Part shown: one piece after another, positions 49,636 to 59,683 of the stretch | Layout of the letters: every line of letters begins with the position of its first letter | How positions within the stretch are numbered: the first letter of the stretch is position 1 | DNA from: Asaia sp. W19 | GTDB taxonomy: Bacteria > Pseudomonadota > Alphaproteobacteria > Acetobacterales > Acetobacteraceae | NCBI RefSeq assembly: GCF_003994335.1 | Contig: NZ_PNQZ01000025.1 | Coordinates: 4-64,003 of the forward strand | Length of the DNA stretch: 64,000 nucleotides | Direction of reading: 5' to 3' | Notes under the pieces: generated by a model | What the model was told of the DNA's origin: nothing | The model's input: only the letters and a program-made list of their open reading frames with translations | Database searches by the model: none | Program-made: the position numbers and the translations under genes

Positions 49636-51066
49636 TCAGGTGCCGCAGAATGTAGCCTGCACCACCTCCTCGGGGAGGGGCGGTGTCTCATAATCGGCGT
49701 CATCCTCGAACGGGCGCACGAGACGCGCGAGCAGACGCTGGAAAACCTCGAAATCTCCATGCTCGGCGGCGTCGATGGCCTCGGCGATCCGATGGTTGCG
49801 GGCGATCACTGCGGGGTTGCTTTGCGCCATCAGGCGGTCCTGCTCTGCTGGCAGGGCCTTTTCCCGGGCGCGGCGTGTCTTCCAGTCTGCCAGCCAGCCA
49901 CCGAGCGCGTCAGAGACAGGTTTTTCGCTGAGGGGCTCGTTCCGTGAGAGACGTCTGAAACTCAGCGTCCAATCCAGTTTTTCCTCTTCAAGGATCTCCA
50001 GAAACCGCACGATCAGCGTCTTGTCCTCAGCCTCGCTCTGCATAAGGCCCAGCTTCGGCCGCATGCGCTCCAGCCAGGCCGTATCATAAAGCGTGCCGAA
50101 CTGGCCAAGCGCCTCCTGTGCCCGGGCCAATGCGCGCTCCTCGTCAGGGTCAACAAACGGCAAAATTGTCTCGGCCAGACGAGCCAGGTTCCATCCTGCC
50201 AGGCGGGGCTGATTGCCATAGGCATAGCGCCCGTTCCGGTCGATCGAACTGAACACCTTGTCATGGCGGTATGCGTCCAGAAAGGCGCAGGGGCCATAAT
50301 CGATTGTCTCTCCCGAAATGGCCATATTATCTGTATTCATCACCCCATGCACGAAGCCCAGGCTCATCCAGTGCGCGATCAGCCGAGCCTGCGCGGCGAC
50401 GACATTTTCGAAGAGTGCGCGCACCGGGTTTTCCGCTGAGGCAGCGCCCGGATAATGGCGTGCAATCGCGAGATCACACAAAAAGCGCAGGGCCTCGCTG
50501 TCCTGGCGCGCGGCAAAATATTGAAACGTGCCCACGCGCAGATGGCTTGCGGCGACGCGGGTCAGAATGGCCCCGGGCAGGGGCCGGTCACGCCACACAG
50601 TCTCGCCTGTGAGCACGGCGGCGAGGGCGCGCGTTGTCGGAACACCCAGAGCGGCCATGGACTCGCTGACGAGGTATTCGCGCAGTACAGGGCCAAGTGC
50701 GGCGAGCCCGTCGCCGCGTCGGGAAAAGGGTGTCGGCCCTGAGCCTTTGAGTTGCACATCGAACGTGCTGCCCTGGGCCGTACTTACCACCCCGAGCAGA
50801 TGCGCCCTTCCGTCGCCCAGTTGTGGCACGAACTGCCCGAATTGATGGCCGGCATAAGCCTGCGCCACAGGCGGCACAGCCTCATCGCGCCATTGTCCGC
50901 TGAAAAGCGCCACGGCCTCTGGCGATCCGAGCCATTCCGGTGAGAAGCCGAGTGTCTGTGCAAGCGCCGAGTTGACGGCAATCAGACGCGGTGCCCTGAG
51001 CGGCGCGGGAGCGGCCTGAACGGCCATGCTGGTAGGAAAAGGAGCGCGACGGAGGGGAAGCGACAT
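49636..51066 (-). CDS. selO: SelO family protein adenylyltransferase (AMPylase)
   Basis: A 476-residue pseudokinase-fold enzyme (YdiU/UPF0061) that transfers AMP from ATP to protein Ser/Thr/Tyr. Family motifs: PVAQAYAGHQFGQFVPQLGDGRA, QLKGSGPTPFSRRGDG, LREYLVSESMAALGVPTTRALA, and the metal/catalytic MNTDNMAISGETIDYGPCAFLD. The two cysteines that form the regulatory disulfide in E. coli SelO appear kept: one in DYGPCAF and one near the C-terminus (ATFCGT). It is linked to redox stress in family studies. It is a single gene, divergent from the flippase. Confidence 0.95.
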   Translation of the reverse strand: MSLPLRRAPFPTSMAVQAAPAPLRAPRLIAVNSALAQTLGFSPEWLGSPEAVALFSGQWRDEAVPPVAQAYAGHQFGQFVPQLGDGRAHLLGVVSTAQGSTFDVQLKGSGPTPFSRRGDGLAALGPVLREYLVSESMAALGVPTTRALAAVLTGETVWRDRPLPGAILTRVAASHLRVGTFQYFAARQDSEALRFLCDLAIARHYPGAASAENPVRALFENVVAAQARLIAHWMSLGFVHGVMNTDNMAISGETIDYGPCAFLDAYRHDKVFSSIDRNGRYAYGNQPRLAGWNLARLAETILPFVDPDEERALARAQEALGQFGTLYDTAWLERMRPKLGLMQSEAEDKTLIVRFLEILEEEKLDWTLSFRRLSRNEPLSEKPVSDALGGWLADWKTRRAREKALPAEQDRLMAQSNPAVIARNHRIAEAIDAAEHGDFEVFQRLLARLVRPFEDDADYETPPLPEEVVQATFCGT

Positions 51067-52690: not shown

Positions 52691-54082
52691 CTATTGTTCC
52701 GCCCCGCCCGGATCATAGCCAAGCGAGGCCAGAACGAGGCGATCTTCCCAGCTGCCGCGCATCAGCGAGGGGAGGACCGACAGGGTTGCAAGGGCCGGGT
52801 CGCGCAGCATGAAGCCATCCAGGCAGGAATCGCGCAGTCTCACCCAGCACCAGATTTCGCCGTGCGGCCCTTCCACCGCGCCAATGCCCTCGCCGCTACC
52901 CGTCGCGATCGGCTCAGCCTGGGGAAGTGGCGCGCCAAACGCCGCAGCAACGCGCTCCAGCCGACGCAGGGAGTCGCGTATCTCGTCGAGGCGAAGGCAT
53001 TGTCGTGCCCAGCCATCGCCCCCCAAACGCGATCCGGCGCGACCGGGAACGTGGCGCATGTCGTCTTCGAGTTGACGCAGATCGAAGGAGCGCCCTGAAG
53101 CGCGAGCGACCAACCCGCCGAGACAATGCGCCTCGGCCCGCCCCGGCGTGATGACGCCAAGTCCCTCGAGGGATTCTGCCATGCGGGCGTGCAGCCCCTC
53201 GATCACGGCAAGGCGTGGCATGAGGGCGTCATGGATCCCATGAGCCAGCGCGCAGATATCGATCCCGAAGGCAATCCCATCGGGGGTGATCGTATCGGTC
53301 AGACGTCTTGTCGCCCCATGGTGAAGGCAAAGCTCAGCGCAGAGATCCTCGGCCAGAGCGGCGTGGCTTGCGAGAAGCGTGAACCCGGTCAGGCGTGCCA
53401 TGAGCGCCATATCGCGACAATGCACCGTGATGCGCTCGATTTCTGCCAGAATGATCCGGGCATCGCGCAATGCCGCAGAGGGGACGATGCCTAGCGCCTG
53501 CTCGATCGCCTGAGTATAGGCAAGGGGGGCCGCGACAAAAGCGGATGAAACACTGCGTCCGATCAGACGCAGGGCTTCCTCTGGCTTTCGGCCAAGGACC
53601 CCCTGCAGAAAGCCTCTATGAGCGGCACCAAGTATGACCTGTCCCATCTCCCAGGCGAAGGGCGGCATGTCGGTCTGAAGCGCCGTCCCGAAGGCAGCAG
53701 ATGGTGGAGCATGATCTGAGGGGACCGAACGGCGCGAGAGCGGTGCGATGCTGGCCCATCCCCCGCGATCGAGAGCGGGCTCCGTTTCAATCGCACCAAG
53801 AGGAAGGCATCCCCACAAATCCTGAGCAATACGCTCAGGCCATGACGCGGCGGGGAGCACGGATGAGAGCGCGAAATACCGTCCCTCGATCAGCGGCGTA
53901 CTGGCCATGACCGGTGTTTCCTGATCGAGAAACAGGACATAGGCCCGGTTGTCATCGCACCAATGGGCGATGAACCAGCCGGCCCTGGCCGCGATCATCG
54001 CGCGCCATTGAGTCTCATCAAGCGCATGATGGAAGGGCGCTATACGCTCGCCGGATCGGATGCGCGCGATCATGGTCGTCAT
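52691..54082 (-). CDS. hyfG: HyfG/HycE-like large subunit without Ni-binding cysteines
   Basis: A 463-residue protein. Residues about 25-100 resemble the 30-kDa (NuoC-like) domain fused at the N-terminus of HycE/HyfG (SSVLPAASWPERIAQDLWG matches VPAAxWYEREVxDLFG). Residues about 140-460 resemble the 49-kDa/NiFe large subunit: AHRGFLQGVLG, AYTQAIEQALGI and ILAEIERITVH align with HycE. Where HycE has RVCGIC, this has RSVSSA (V178, A181), and the C-terminal CxxC is absent (LASLGYDPGGAEQ). It cannot hold a Ni-Fe centre. ATG 54082 overlaps the hyfF-like stop. It is the last gene of the operon; no HyfI-like small subunit follows. Confidence 0.82.
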   Translation of the reverse strand: MTTMIARIRSGERIAPFHHALDETQWRAMIAARAGWFIAHWCDDNRAYVLFLDQETPVMASTPLIEGRYFALSSVLPAASWPERIAQDLWGCLPLGAIETEPALDRGGWASIAPLSRRSVPSDHAPPSAAFGTALQTDMPPFAWEMGQVILGAAHRGFLQGVLGRKPEEALRLIGRSVSSAFVAAPLAYTQAIEQALGIVPSAALRDARIILAEIERITVHCRDMALMARLTGFTLLASHAALAEDLCAELCLHHGATRRLTDTITPDGIAFGIDICALAHGIHDALMPRLAVIEGLHARMAESLEGLGVITPGRAEAHCLGGLVARASGRSFDLRQLEDDMRHVPGRAGSRLGGDGWARQCLRLDEIRDSLRRLERVAAAFGAPLPQAEPIATGSGEGIGAVEGPHGEIWCWVRLRDSCLDGFMLRDPALATLSVLPSLMRGSWEDRLVLASLGYDPGGAEQ

Positions 54083-55233
54083 GGCGCCATCCAGCCCAGG
54101 GAAAAATCCTGTCCTGTGTGCACCGCCGGGAGAAGGAAGGGCGCGACAAGACCCAGCCCAAGGAGCAGAAGCAGGATCAGCCGGTCGCGCCATGCGCAGG
54201 GAAGAGCGCCAGCCAGACCGGATCGGCTGGCCATAACTCCCAGCCCAATCACCGTGAGTAGGGCGGCGAGCCCGCCCGAGAGCGGGCTGCTCCGCATCAA
54301 TCCGGCCAACAAGCCGCAGCTCGCGGCAAATGGCGGCCAGGGGGGCAGGCCGCAGGCGACCCAGCGCCTTGAGCGGCTGTCGAGCGCCGGTTCGGCTGCG
54401 AGGGCGAGCCCCGTGCTCAGAAACAGCATCGCCGGAACATGCCCGCCCGGTATGGCGGTAGAGACGATGGCGAGTGCGATAAGAGAGCGTACGCCGTCCT
54501 GCCGCGCGAGAATTCCCAGCCACAGGGCAGCCAGCCCGGCCAGGACCAGCACGGTGTGCGTGATGTCGCGTTCGGGCAGCCGGATCATGAGGGCAATGGC
54601 GGCGATGCAGAGCAGCATGTCCAGAAGCGCGCTGGCGCGTTCGGTGGGCGGGATCAGGCTTGAATCGAAGGAAGAGGCCAAGCCACCCGGTGCACCCAGT
54701 CCCGCAAGCAGGCATAGCCCAATGGACAAGAGGAGATCGCCCAATCTCAGCGTGGCCGGATCAGGGCTGAAACTCGTCAGGCTTGAACCAAGCAGGGTCA
54801 GGATCGTCCCGGCCAGACGCAGGCGCATCGACTCCCAGGCCTGCCTTGCCCGTGTGGTGGCAAGGGACTCCCGCAGGGCGAGAAGGAGCGCCCCACAGGC
54901 AATCAGGCAGGCAACGGGGAGCACGGCATGAAGGCCGAGAGCGAGCATGGTCACGAAACAGGCGAGAAAATCGAGACAGAGCGTGAGGCGTCGGCTCCCC
55001 TCACGCCAGGAAAGAAAGGGAACACTTGCCGCCAGCAGCCAGGTCCAGCGCGTAATCAGATCCTGCCCGGCAACAAGGGGGGTGAGCAATACGGTCAGCG
55101 CCAGACCGGTCAGAGCAAAGAGACGTGCCGAGCCCGCTGCCCGCTTTTCCGGCAGCAAGGCGAGCAGACAGGCGGCAAGCAGGGGCCAGGTTGGTATCAG
55201 GAAACGGGCGATCTGATGCAGGGTTTCAGCCAT
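54079..55233 (-). CDS. hyfF: HyfF-like (NuoL/M/N-type) membrane subunit, shortened
   Basis: A 384-residue protein with about 10-12 hydrophobic segments; E. coli HyfF has 526 residues. By manual alignment LSIGLCLLAGLGAPGGL falls on the TM7 stretch GYGTKAGLAPMHTWLP of HyfF, with the proton-path Lys replaced by Leu (about L176), and the TM5 Glu region reads VACLIACGALL without Glu. The fold thus looks kept, but a working proton channel is doubtful. ATG 55233 lies inside the end of the HyfE-like gene (8-base overlap); the stop overlaps the hyfG-like start. Confidence 0.72.
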   Translation of the reverse strand: MAETLHQIARFLIPTWPLLAACLLALLPEKRAAGSARLFALTGLALTVLLTPLVAGQDLITRWTWLLAASVPFLSWREGSRRLTLCLDFLACFVTMLALGLHAVLPVACLIACGALLLALRESLATTRARQAWESMRLRLAGTILTLLGSSLTSFSPDPATLRLGDLLLSIGLCLLAGLGAPGGLASSFDSSLIPPTERASALLDMLLCIAAIALMIRLPERDITHTVLVLAGLAALWLGILARQDGVRSLIALAIVSTAIPGGHVPAMLFLSTGLALAAEPALDSRSRRWVACGLPPWPPFAASCGLLAGLMRSSPLSGGLAALLTVIGLGVMASRSGLAGALPCAWRDRLILLLLLGLGLVAPFLLPAVHTGQDFSLGWMAP

Positions 55234-55780
55234 GGCTGGTACTATCCGTTCTGAGCCAGGCCAGGCGGGGCATAAGCCAGCGTCCAAGGGCCAGGAGCCC
55301 GATCCAGACCAGTGCTGCGCCAAGAACGAGCGCCCAGCTTTGTCGGTGCGCCCCCATGAGGAGAAGGCCGTTCAGCGCACTCAGCAAGCCGGTGAGCTGC
55401 ATCAGGGGCATCGGCAGGGAGGCCGCGCAAAGCCCAGAGAATACGATCCCGATGCAGATCAGAACCGGCAAGCCCGGTGTTGCCGCAAGCGCCGTCAGAA
55501 GGAGCAGGGCGATGGAGGCACAGACAGCGAGGGAGGCAGCCTGCTGCGCAGCACGCCGCGCGCGAAGATCGCCGGCACGCCAGCCGGTATGGCGACGGAG
55601 CATCATCCAGCCTGCACCATTCAGCAAGGGAAGGAGGATCAATGCCGTCAGGGCGGGCGCGCCGTAGCCGATCGCGGAGACACAGGCGGCGGCGCAGGTG
55701 CCGTGAAAAGGCAGCACGCGGCTGTCGCGTCCTATGGCGGCGAGGGCGATCAGCAGCATCAGGCCAAGCAGAACCGTCAC
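55226..55780 (-). CDS. hyfE: HyfE-like (NuoK-related) membrane subunit
   Basis: A 184-residue protein with about six hydrophobic segments, close to HyfE (216 residues) in size and order of segments, placed between HyfC-like and HyfF-like genes exactly as in hyf operons. The identification rests mainly on position and hydrophobic pattern. The ATG overlaps the previous stop (ATGA) and its stop overlaps the next start. Its job would be lateral membrane assembly of the complex. Confidence 0.68.
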   Translation of the reverse strand: MTVLLGLMLLIALAAIGRDSRVLPFHGTCAAACVSAIGYGAPALTALILLPLLNGAGWMMLRRHTGWRAGDLRARRAAQQAASLAVCASIALLLLTALAATPGLPVLICIGIVFSGLCAASLPMPLMQLTGLLSALNGLLLMGAHRQSWALVLGAALVWIGLLALGRWLMPRLAWLRTDSTSHG

Positions 55781-56685
55781 GTACTCAGCCTCCCGGCAAG
55801 AACCAGCAGAATGGCCGCACCGCTCAGGACCAGGGCCAGACGCCCCGAGGGCAGCGGGCGTATGGCGCGCCAGGCAGCGGCGAGACAGACCAGCAGAGTG
55901 AGCTTAAGCGGAGCCGCGACGCACCAGAGCAGGGCGAGATGCCCGATGGTGGCATTGCTCGTGGCCAGGGAATCCGGCCAGACCAGATCGGCGACCAGAA
56001 GATACCAGCAACAGACAGAGAGATCGTGGCGGTAGCGCATCAGGCTGCGATGGCGCCCCTGCGCCCCTGCAATCAGGTCCTCGTTCCAGGATTGGGACAG
56101 GAAGCGCCGATTGAGGATGAGCAGGATCGCAGCCGCCATGAAGACGAGACCGCCCATCAGGGCCGGGGCGGGCTGCAGCAGGCGTTGTTGCAGCAGACCC
56201 AGAAGCGTCCCCGCGCCGGGAAGCCCGACCGTGATCAATGTTCCTGTGAGTGCGAGCAGAGGCACCAGAAACATAAGATCGTGCCCCAGCCTCCCGAGGG
56301 CAGCCCTAAGACGCAGGGCGATCATGGGGGTCGGGGCAGCGTTGACAGTCTGAGCCCAAAGACAGCCCGATGCCAGGATCAGCAGGACACCGCAGGCGAG
56401 AGGCTCGGACAAAAAGCCGAAGAGCAGCCTCGTGCTGGCCAGGGGGATGCCTGTCATGGCGAGAAGAACCGAGCACAGGCTCAGTCGGCTCAGGGCTGGA
56501 ATAGCCCCTCTCTTGCGCCAGCCTGCACGTATCTGTCGCCAGCGCCATCCGGGCAGGACACCGCTGCGGCCAGCCAGAAGATTACCGGTCAGGCATTCCA
56601 GATCGGTCAGGAAGGGCGCCAGAAGCGCGATCGTGACCATCTGGGCGACGGTGATGAGCAGAGCCAGAAGAAACGCAGCGATCAT
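55777..56685 (-). CDS. hyfC: HyfC-like (NuoH-family) membrane subunit
   Basis: A 302-residue protein with about eight hydrophobic segments, near the family's usual length (HyfC 315, NuoH 325). After the first helix, LTGNLLAGRSGVLPGWRWRQIRAGWRKRGAIPA aligns with the HycD/HyfC loop RRGPGVWQDYRDIVKLLKRQ. NuoH-type subunits join the membrane arm to the large/small subunit pair at the quinone or ferredoxin site. Start and stop both overlap neighbours by 4 bases (ATGA). Confidence 0.75.
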   Translation of the reverse strand: MIAAFLLALLITVAQMVTIALLAPFLTDLECLTGNLLAGRSGVLPGWRWRQIRAGWRKRGAIPALSRLSLCSVLLAMTGIPLASTRLLFGFLSEPLACGVLLILASGCLWAQTVNAAPTPMIALRLRAALGRLGHDLMFLVPLLALTGTLITVGLPGAGTLLGLLQQRLLQPAPALMGGLVFMAAAILLILNRRFLSQSWNEDLIAGAQGRHRSLMRYRHDLSVCCWYLLVADLVWPDSLATSNATIGHLALLWCVAAPLKLTLLVCLAAAWRAIRPLPSGRLALVLSGAAILLVLAGRLST

Positions 56686-58097
56686 GCCGTCCAGCCCAGC
56701 CAGGCGAGGGCAACCGCCAGTACTGCCAGCCAGAGCGGGAGTGCTTGCCGGATGAGTGGGGTCTCAAATGCGCGGGTCGATCGCCCGTTCATCTGCCCCA
56801 TGTCCCTCGCGCCGTGCAAAAACGTCACGAGCGCACCAAAACGCTGCCTCCCGGTTACGATGAAACGCTTGATCGTCCACGGCAGGCGCAGCCGGAATTC
56901 CGGAATCGGCCAGGGCGGGATGCCTGTACGAGTGGGCAGGAGGGGCCCGATCAGGAGAGGCGCGACGAGGGCTGGAATCAGGAAAATCAGCGCAGGATAC
57001 CAGAAGGCGCCATCGCCCCCGGCAAGCGACCAGAGCGGCCAGCCACGCCAGGTATCGCCGCTGCTGCCCGCCATCACGAGCAGGGCCTTGTGCACGAGAC
57101 CGAGAAACAGACCGGGACAGATCGAGAGGACCAGCCCGAGCGTGACCGGAGCAAGAGATGTCTGGCTCAGAGAGGGTGGAGAGCGCGCAGCCTGCTGCCA
57201 TGCGGCGAGCCAGCTTCGGATCATGAGCACGCCGATCACGAGGCTCAGCATGACTCCGCCAGCGGTCCAGGCAGGAGAGAGACCACAAAGCGCATCAATA
57301 ACGTGAAGGGCCAGCCAGAAGGGCAGGAACCCGGCAAGTGGAGGCAGGGGCGTCCGGAAAAGGAAGCCGGTTTTCCCGAGCCCCGTCAGAGCCAGTGCGA
57401 GGATCGTTGCTTCTGCGCCCGCCATGGCCGTGTCAGGCAGATTACCGATCCGGGCGCACATGGTCAGCCCGAGCAGGAGCAGCGGAAAGCCTGCGAGTCC
57501 CTTGCCGACTGGCATTGTCAGGCAGAGCCCGCCTCCCAAGAGGATCAGGCAGAGTGGCCAGAACAGGGAGGTCGTGTCGAGAAGGGTAGGCACGAGAAGC
57601 GCATAGGCCAGAAGCGGGAGCTCGGCGAAAGCCGGCAGCAAGCCGAGTCCAGCCAACGGTGCCAGAAACGCCAGGGCGGGGACGAATGGAAGCAGGGCAA
57701 GGAGACAGGAGGCCGGCGCCAGCAAGCCCAGCCGCCAGGCTGAGTGGGGCGGCGCCACGTCTGCATCCGGTATCTGTCTGTGTGTCTGCGCGAGACAGGG
57801 CAGAAAGCAAAGCAGGGCGAGCGTCGTGCTATCGCAAAGCAGGCCAAGCCCGCCCAAGGCCTCTGTCAGGGCATTCTGTCTCGCGGCGTGAGGGATGCGC
57901 GACACCGTCCAGAGCAGCAGCCAGCAGGCATTGAGCGGGTCGAGCGTCAGGGCGGAAAGATTGGCTTCATGCGGACTGAGCGCGCCACAGAGCGCTGCAA
58001 TTGCTTGCAGGCCAAGAACGACGCCGCGCAACACTGCCGCTGTCGGTCCCTTCAAAGGTGCCGATACCAGGCGCACGACCAGGCAGATCAGCAACAA
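56682..58097 (-). CDS. hyfB: HyfB-like (NuoL/M-type) membrane subunit, shortened
   Basis: A 471-residue protein with about 12-14 hydrophobic segments; HyfB is about 670. LSALTLDPLNACWLLLW matches the early LxxDxLSAxF motif of NuoL/M proteins. LGKTGFLFRTPLPPLAGFLP aligns with GFGAKAGLVPLHVWLPxAHPAAP, keeping the TM7 Lys (K242), but no Glu is seen in the TM5-like stretch. The frame starts at TTG 58097 without a ribosome site; upstream the frame stays open as PLFPAFALALLL back to a stop at 58147-58149, with a CTG at 58124 after AGGA as a possible start. It is the first gene of the five-gene operon. Confidence 0.74.
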   Translation of the reverse strand: MLLICLVVRLVSAPLKGPTAAVLRGVVLGLQAIAALCGALSPHEANLSALTLDPLNACWLLLWTVSRIPHAARQNALTEALGGLGLLCDSTTLALLCFLPCLAQTHRQIPDADVAPPHSAWRLGLLAPASCLLALLPFVPALAFLAPLAGLGLLPAFAELPLLAYALLVPTLLDTTSLFWPLCLILLGGGLCLTMPVGKGLAGFPLLLLGLTMCARIGNLPDTAMAGAEATILALALTGLGKTGFLFRTPLPPLAGFLPFWLALHVIDALCGLSPAWTAGGVMLSLVIGVLMIRSWLAAWQQAARSPPSLSQTSLAPVTLGLVLSICPGLFLGLVHKALLVMAGSSGDTWRGWPLWSLAGGDGAFWYPALIFLIPALVAPLLIGPLLPTRTGIPPWPIPEFRLRLPWTIKRFIVTGRQRFGALVTFLHGARDMGQMNGRSTRAFETPLIRQALPLWLAVLAVALAWLGWTA

Positions 58098-58366: not shown

Positions 58367-58642
58367 TCAGAGCGGACCGTATTCCCCGGCGCGCTGCTGC
58401 GCGAGCGTCAGCAGATCATTGCTGCCATTGCCTGCGGCTTCGGGGTCGTAGAGCACGAATTCCAGTTCAGGCTCGATCTGCCTGAAGGCGAGAGTCATAC
58501 CAAGACGCTCGCCAAGAAATGCCGTGAAACGCTCTATCTGGGTGCTGGGAAGGCTCGAAACCCAGACCCGGCGCTCACGCTCCAGATCACGGGAAATCTG
58601 GGGGTGTGCCACGAGATAGGTCTCAAATTCTGCTTTCGTCAT
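58367..58642 (-). CDS. Small protein of unknown function
   Basis: A 91-residue acidic, soluble protein starting MTKAEFETYLVAHPQISRDL. ATG 58642 has GGCGGAG 7 bases upstream, which supports translation. No domain is recognised. It lies upstream of the Hyf-like operon on the same strand with a 269-base gap, so it is not clearly part of it. Confidence 0.55.
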   Translation of the reverse strand: MTKAEFETYLVAHPQISRDLERERRVWVSSLPSTQIERFTAFLGERLGMTLAFRQIEPELEFVLYDPEAAGNGSNDLLTLAQQRAGEYGPL

Positions 58643-58837: not shown

Positions 58838-59683
58838 TCAGATCATTTCGAGAGGCCTCTTTTCATCAGGTGGTGTGAAATGCGCGTCCAGCTGGGCCAG
58901 ATCCTCTGACGTCAACTCTATGGACAGCGCCGCTATGTTTTCACGCAGATGGCGGCGTGAGCCTGCCTTGGGGATAGAGAGAAGGTTCGGATGCCTGATC
59001 GTCCAGGCAAGGGCGATCTGGGCCGGTGTGGCAGGGCCGTTTTTCGTCTCATGGGCGCGGGCTATGGTGGCAAGTACGGGCTCGTGCAACAGGGCGCCCC
59101 CCTGACCCAGGGGCGAGTAGGCCATCGAAACGATCTGCGCCTGCCGGTCGCGCGCCAGCAGGTCATGATCCACGCCGCGCGCTTCGAGATTGTACAGAAT
59201 CTGGTTTGCGGCACAGTCCTCGTTGAGGCTGTCCAGCTCCTCCATATCTTCCGTGTCGAAATTCGAGACCCCCCAGTGTCGGATCAATCCCTGATCCTGC
59301 AGATGAACGAGCGCATCCAGCGTTTCCTCAAGCGGTACGCCACCACGCCAGTGCAGCAGATAGAGATCGAGATGATCGGTTCCCAGCCTTTCGAGCGAGG
59401 CCGTGCAACTGCTGAGCGTTCCCTCATAGGTGGCATTGGAGGGCAGAACCTTGGAGACGAGAAAGACCTGATCCCGCCTGCCGCGTATGGCCTCTCCTAC
59501 CAGCCGCTCAGACCGGCCACCGCCATACATCTCCGCTGTGTCGATCACGCTGAGCCCCAGATCGAGCCCCTCCTGCAGGCTGGCGATCTCCTCAGCGCGC
59601 GAGGCCACCGAGTCGCCTATGTTCCAGCTGCCCATTCCCAGTGCTGGAACCGAGAGGCCATCGCGAAAAACCACCTGTTTCAT
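58838..59683 (-). CDS. Aldo/keto reductase
   Basis: A 281-residue NAD(P)H-dependent (alpha/beta)8-barrel oxidoreductase. The catalytic tetrad can be read: Asp and Tyr in IDTAEMYGGGRSE, Lys in FLVSKVLP, His in LYLLHWRGG. GVSNFD, and the cofactor-binding SIPKAGSRRHLRENIAAL near the C-terminus, complete the family set. It reduces aldehydes or ketones of metabolic or toxic origin; the substrate is open. It is a single gene, divergent from the bicupin. Confidence 0.94.
   Translation of the reverse strand: MKQVVFRDGLSVPALGMGSWNIGDSVASRAEEIASLQEGLDLGLSVIDTAEMYGGGRSERLVGEAIRGRRDQVFLVSKVLPSNATYEGTLSSCTASLERLGTDHLDLYLLHWRGGVPLEETLDALVHLQDQGLIRHWGVSNFDTEDMEELDSLNEDCAANQILYNLEARGVDHDLLARDRQAQIVSMAYSPLGQGGALLHEPVLATIARAHETKNGPATPAQIALAWTIRHPNLLSIPKAGSRRHLRENIAALSIELTSEDLAQLDAHFTPPDEKRPLEMI

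Follow-up and report, generated by a model that had tools for sequence, protein, structure and literature searches.

The window analysed here is a 64,000-nucleotide stretch of Asaia sp. W19 DNA and part of contig C152; the assembly has 3.94 Mb in 228 contigs and a contamination score of 8%. As an earlier preliminary description of this DNA had stated, five overlapping hyf-like genes are found on its minus strand, reading from position 58097 to 52691. These genes and their upstream neighbours are as follows.

58838..59683, minus strand: aldo/keto reductase gene (PF00248)
58367..58642, minus strand: 91-aa ORF between the reductase gene and hyfB, with no Pfam family
56682..58097, minus strand: hyfB-like gene, 471 aa; antiporter-like subunit with a predicted HycC/NuoL fold; the start codon (TTG at 58097) is uncertain
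55777..56685, minus strand: hyfC-like gene, 302 aa; NuoH/HyfC type, without a stretch conserved in intact copies
55226..55780, minus strand: hyfE-like gene, 184 aa; GTG start
54079..55233, minus strand: hyfF-like gene, 384 aa; antiporter-like, with a predicted fold of the Complex I NuoL/M/N type, without the TM5 Glu and the TM7 Lys
52691..54082, minus strand: hyfG-like large subunit gene, 463 aa, without Ni-ligating CxxC

Every junction overlaps, by 4 bases at B/C and F/G (ATGA in both), 4 bases at C/E and 8 bases at E/F. The overlaps and the 8-base junction had been described correctly, but ATGA had been given for three junctions, and the one at C/E is GTGA. Since hyfC and hyfE overlap, there is no gene between them. 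Congeners have the same order, hyfB-C-E-F-G, and so do 43 of 44 named loci; the remaining one (L139) begins at hyfC near a contig end. These counts cover L121-L164 among 56 loci and leave out the 12 more distant ones (L165-L176). The aldo/keto reductase gene is the upstream neighbour of hyfB in 28 of the 44, and in Gluconobacter japonicus (L131) it lies about 70 bp ahead of the first matched HyfB residue. The 91-aa ORF is present in all five other Asaia loci compared, with 41-56% identity. Synteny with other Asaia holds for the hyf genes and their neighbours; the genus-mates of the window include A. siamensis (G192), A. lannensis (G085), A. krungthepensis (G228), A. bogorensis (G259) and A. 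prunellae (G286). A candidate SelO gene lies at 49636-51066 of the window, PF02696 having been matched in the corresponding gene of an A. siamensis locus (L066).

Neither Pfam nor NCBIfam has a family that HyfB or HyfC matches, and HyfE and HyfF have no match above the cut-offs of these collections. The identity of the four is drawn from iterated sequence profiles with collinearity and from profile-profile comparison, and for HyfB and HyfF also from predicted folds; together with the HyfG matches given below, this bears out the subunit names first proposed. A direct profile search of the PDB with HyfB and HyfF returned nothing at E 1. The predicted structure of HyfF matched 51 chains in Foldseek with E < 0.001. 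Since Foldseek gave HyfB no match below 0.001 (best E, 1.2e-3), its fold call rests on VIA-align, by which the predicted structure is nearest to HycC. The HyfF profile built from the named loci alone did not match intact HyfF significantly (E 0.076), while the profile including intermediates did (E 1.9e-6). Across this boundary between reduced and intact forms, the HyfB and HyfF alignments are weak in places.

The large subunit and its small-subunit partner

HyfG matches PF00346 with 30.8 bits (cut-off, 24), and its matches to NuoD models all fall under the model cut-offs. A 20-row HyfG profile found HycE (7z0s_E, E 1.6e-28), which is the closest by sequence. The motifs H155-R-G and E214-I-E-R-x3-H221 are recognizable, and the scaffold features H155, EIER...H221, GRASGR and GEGIG are retained. 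In the alignment with E. coli HyfG, V178 and A181 take the places of C243 and C246, and the C-terminal CxxC is absent, just as the preliminary description had read these motifs. Its view of a reduced relative of Complex I lacking the [NiFe] site is supported. Hydrogenase activity was rejected because the Ni ligands are absent from HyfG.

Is the loss of the Ni site peculiar to Asaia? None of 45 Acetobacteraceae HyfG has a complete CxxC at either site, let alone the pair that binds NiFe in Group 4 [NiFe] hydrogenases. A single aligned Cys is retained in each of two HyfG (G030 and G117); in several intact-type rows the residue just ahead of the third ligand position is an isolated Cys. In a sample of the class, close relatives of an intact-type HyfG (E 1e-120 or better) turned up in 23 of 289 genomes, and all 23 have Ser or Thr at ligands 1-3 and a gap at the fourth. 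The ferredoxin-like HyfA and HyfH of Group 4 hydrogenases are likewise absent, the E. coli queries finding no match and no HyfH/NuoI-type protein in the 45 family loci. In the source genome, the HyfH query found a NuoI-like gene at 87 kb of C152 and a weak match at C205, and the HyfA query only a weak match at C112. By these sequence comparisons, the Ni loss and the missing electron-input proteins are old. The preliminary description had treated them as distinctive; they are instead usual for operons of this type, both of them in the family loci examined and the Ni loss also in the class sample.

The same description was right that genes for HyfA, HyfH and HyfI are absent from the operon. HyfI, however, is not lacking altogether. 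A PF01058 search of the source genome found two proteins: a NuoB (C152, near 79 kb) and a HyfI-like protein encoded on another contig.

G000:C35:188213-188692: hyfI-like gene, 160 aa (PF01058, 74.9 bits)

A partner encoded elsewhere had been suggested as one possibility, and this HyfI supports the suggestion. In the source genome and in L005, its stop codon overlaps the start codon of an NrtR gene (PF21906) as ATGA. In the source genome NrtR is followed by nadA, nadB and nadC, with a Nudix gene on the opposite flank of hyfI; the NadA of this contig is 95% identical to that of two Asaia. Other Asaia, Brytella, G025 and G046 likewise have HyfI next to NrtR, and in loci of Bombella and Saccharibacter it is close to nad genes. 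All 50 aligned HyfI rows, which include a few organisms twice, have the cysteines corresponding to C36, C39, C103 and C138. A separate motif count gave 42 of 44, missing G143 and G151, of which G151 has all four in the alignment.

The survey of Acetobacteraceae suggested in the preliminary description, for the five-gene order and for a HyfI elsewhere, found the order as given above and HyfI in all 33 relatives. Each of these has at least one PF01058 protein, and a true absence of HyfI was rejected on this ground and on the protein in the source genome. The 33 comprise 32 other genomes with a HyfG match and G126, whose HyfG is in pieces; counting the source genome, the search of 299 family genomes gave HyfG matches of E 1e-69 or better in 33. 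Eighteen of the 33 relatives have exactly one PF01058 protein, at the place of HyfI, and no NuoB of Complex I was found in them. In seven Asaia genomes, the source among them (G000, G085, G149, G192, G228, G259 and G286), hyfG and the nuoB of Complex I share a contig, some 25-27 kb apart.

HyfI comes right after HyfG in 23 of the 44 named loci (20 Gluconobacter, Tanticharoenia, Saccharibacter and Acetobacteraceae ESL0709), lies about 1 to 4 kb off in 12 (11 Bombella and relatives, and Brytella) and is outside the fetched locus in nine (seven Asaia, Swaminathania and Acidomonas). Judged by this placement, hyfI probably followed hyfBCEFG in the ancestor and became separated from it in the Asaia lineage. 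Quick trees of HyfG and HyfI from 44 genomes have 13 of 41 splits in common, including an Asaia and Swaminathania clade (support, 100 for HyfG and 99 for HyfI). The correlation of HyfG and HyfI distances is 0.54, while 1000 permutations gave at most 0.24.

Charged residues of the membrane arm

The Glu of HyfF TM5 (E143 in E. coli) is present in 12 of 13 intact rows and in none of 28 reduced rows, the latter being 20 close and 8 intermediate sequences. None of the 28 has a basic residue in the columns of H343, H347 and K351. In TM7, the Lys of GTKAGL has become Leu, and in HyfB of the window the Glu of SEW in TM12 has become Phe. HyfC lacks the stretch ENxRxPVDNPATHLELTMVHEAM carried by intact copies, which I take to be the conserved loop of NuoH-type subunits. 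The other HyfC charges are mostly retained (R52, D104 or E, K270 or R).

A count of charged columns depends less on alignment across the boundary. Charged columns conserved in at least 80% of rows fall from 27 in intact to 5 in reduced HyfB and from 27 to 9 in reduced HyfF, the sets being unequal (8 rows versus 40 and 39). The remaining charged positions include an invariant H265 in HyfB and the conserved E134, R137, R139 and D205 in HyfF. Judged from sequence, it is the stripped membrane arm that is new. The preliminary description missed this loss of conserved charge; its interpretation as a whole is supported in part.

Distribution, tree and selection

In a quick tree of 69 HyfG sequences, the label of reduced or intact changes once, at SH-aLRT 100, and all 28 rows labelled as having a reduced HyfF lie on one side of one branch. 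The labels comprise 28 reduced (reached by the HyfF profile of the window), 12 intact and 29 neither; the changes on the HyfG tree were counted separately, with E. coli as intact. Two loci on metagenome-assembled contigs labelled Asaia bogorensis (L167 and L170) have a HyfG only 30-31% identical to that of the window, and a HyfI adjoining it. They differ from the isolate Asaia, and the labels are probably wrong.

The hyf genes look to be under selection, going by substitution rates. Pairwise dN/dS is 0.13-0.30 for HyfB, 0.12-0.26 for HyfC, 0.08-0.22 for HyfE, 0.19-0.31 for HyfF, 0.10-0.15 for HyfG and 0.07-0.12 for HyfI, from seven pairs per gene (six for HyfI) among the window, four Asaia and Swaminathania; the values are rough because dS is near saturation. 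For the aldo/keto reductase against A. bogorensis dS is saturated, and rows for the polysaccharide gene of the window are left out of this set. Chance ORFs were rejected on the conserved gene order in congeners and named loci and on dN/dS below 1.

Some assemblies have broken genes. Fragmented HyfG genes occur in A. prunellae (L127, G286), A. astilbis (L129) and G126, while in A. platycodi (L124) the broken ones are HyfB, HyfE and HyfF; the loci of these Asaia assemblies and of G126 with broken HyfG or other hyf genes are L124, L127, L129, L212 and L210/L211. In A. platycodi, A. astilbis and G126, neighbouring genes are broken as well, and a sequencing error is therefore indicated in these. 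Both neighbours inspected in A. prunellae are unbroken, and thus a real loss is possible. In G126, HyfG, HyfI and the reductase gene are interrupted, and NrtR and NadA are open. A joint decay of the former was considered there; with a gene next to hyfG also broken, errors in sequencing are equally likely.

A possible role of the complex

The usual view of Complex I and its relatives is that of ion pumps driven by redox chemistry, and there is debate on the way this chemistry is linked to the antiporter-like subunits. A series within one family, from charge-rich to charge-stripped arms on the same scaffold, would be a test set for coupling residues and would show what use such a complex has without pumping. 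Isolates of Gluconobacter and Asaia have the complex, among them some whose genomes yielded no NuoB of Complex I. Among the matches listed from a search of open-licence literature (titles and the starts of abstracts), none describes this complex in acetic acid bacteria.

I suggest that HyfB, HyfC, HyfE, HyfF and HyfG of the window and HyfI of C35 form one membrane complex, which would descend from a Ni-less alphaproteobacterial HyfBCEFGI complex. Within a clade to which the acetic acid bacteria belong, the membrane arm has also lost the greater part of its conserved ion-path residues. HyfG would hold the single [4Fe-4S] cluster of HyfI in a module that is anchored to the membrane and does not pump, and this module may act as an electron relay or redox switch for a putative cytosolic partner. 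The cluster site, the HyfG scaffold and the antiporter-fold anchor are kept, while the features for H2 chemistry, the NuoH-type stretch and most canonical ion-path charges are lost; therefore, a non-pumping module is favoured. I put the probability of this six-subunit Hyf/Ehr-like reading at roughly 0.45. Several observations count against it: ions might take another path along the remaining charges of HyfB and HyfF and the mostly kept R52, D104 (or E) and K270-type charges of HyfC; the HyfB and HyfF alignments between reduced and intact forms are weak in places; HyfG is broken in A. prunellae, A. astilbis and G126, with whole neighbours in A. prunellae; and the HyfG and HyfI trees have no more than 13 of 41 splits in common. 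The general form of the idea, that a complex of the Complex I fold without the Ni site, the NuoH-type stretch and the ion path has been kept across an Acetobacteraceae clade as a one-cluster membrane redox sensor or relay and not as a pump, is a tentative one. The link to NAD metabolism (NrtR, nadABC) and the upstream aldo/keto reductase are leads only.

How does such a complex compare with known systems? Ehr complexes have been described in Nitrospira (PMC10284858), Margulisbacteria (PMC6349859) and Geobacter (PMC7894505). Judged by features and the published passages, the Asaia complex resembles them in having a group-4-like large subunit without Ni-ligating CxxC, a small subunit (HyfI, whose four Cys would hold a proximal-type cluster) and antiporter-like membrane subunits, NuoL-like and HyfE-like. 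It differs in that the membrane arm lacks most canonical charges and the HyfC stretch, and in that HyfI is encoded in trans. The ion-path residues missing from its antiporter-like subunits concern the presumed function of Ehr, suspected of charge translocation in one of these passages (PMC6349859), and lie outside the definition given in these passages. Compared with E. coli hydrogenase-4 and formate hydrogenlyase (Hyf and Hyc; 7z0s, 7z0t), the HyfB fold is like HycC and the HyfG sequence like HycE, but the Ni site is gone and the loci have no HyfA or HyfH. Respiratory Complex I (Nuo) shares NuoD-like and NuoB-like sequences and antiporter-like folds, but it has a separate nuo locus in the same genome, at about 79-87 kb of C152.

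It is rather unlikely that the complex is a deranged one with a purely structural role, stabilizing another membrane or metabolic complex without redox chemistry of its own. There is a precedent in the same bacterial family, where a non-functional bc1 complex, retained despite lost cofactor ligands, has been proposed to act structurally (PMC10715153); its proteins are unrelated to Hyf, and the term 'hyf' does not occur in the main text of that article. The joint loss of the Ni site, the ion-path residues and the HyfC stretch would fit such a role, but the four Cys of HyfI are retained in every aligned row. Moreover, stabilization of Complex I is not a general role, because no NuoB was found in the 18 genomes with a single PF01058 protein.

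The neighbours of hyfI raise the thought that the state of its cluster signals redox conditions or the NAD pool to NAD metabolism via NrtR and nadABC. The ATGA overlap with NrtR, the adjacent nadABC and the recurrence of this neighbourhood in other genera agree with such a sensor. It is nevertheless improbable: in all 20 Gluconobacter loci, HyfI follows HyfG, and the flanking DNA covered (at most 9 kb to either side, less in L133, L139 and L144) showed neither nad genes nor NrtR; the linkage may be inherited gene order only.

Returning to the membrane arm, an Ehr-like oxidoreductase that still translocates ions by other titratable residues and takes electrons from a cytosolic donor protein would suit the predicted antiporter-like folds of HyfB and HyfF and the charges remaining in both. 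I consider it quite improbable, since the TM5 Glu and TM7 Lys of HyfF and the TM12 Glu of HyfB have given way to hydrophobic residues and the HyfC stretch is absent. Finally, a decaying pseudo-operon could account for the low identity of HyfB (48-55% between the window and five congeners, 18-46% outside) and for the broken HyfG genes, but it is very improbable, as the five frames are open in the window, dN/dS is below 1 for every gene and the gene order is kept across many genera.
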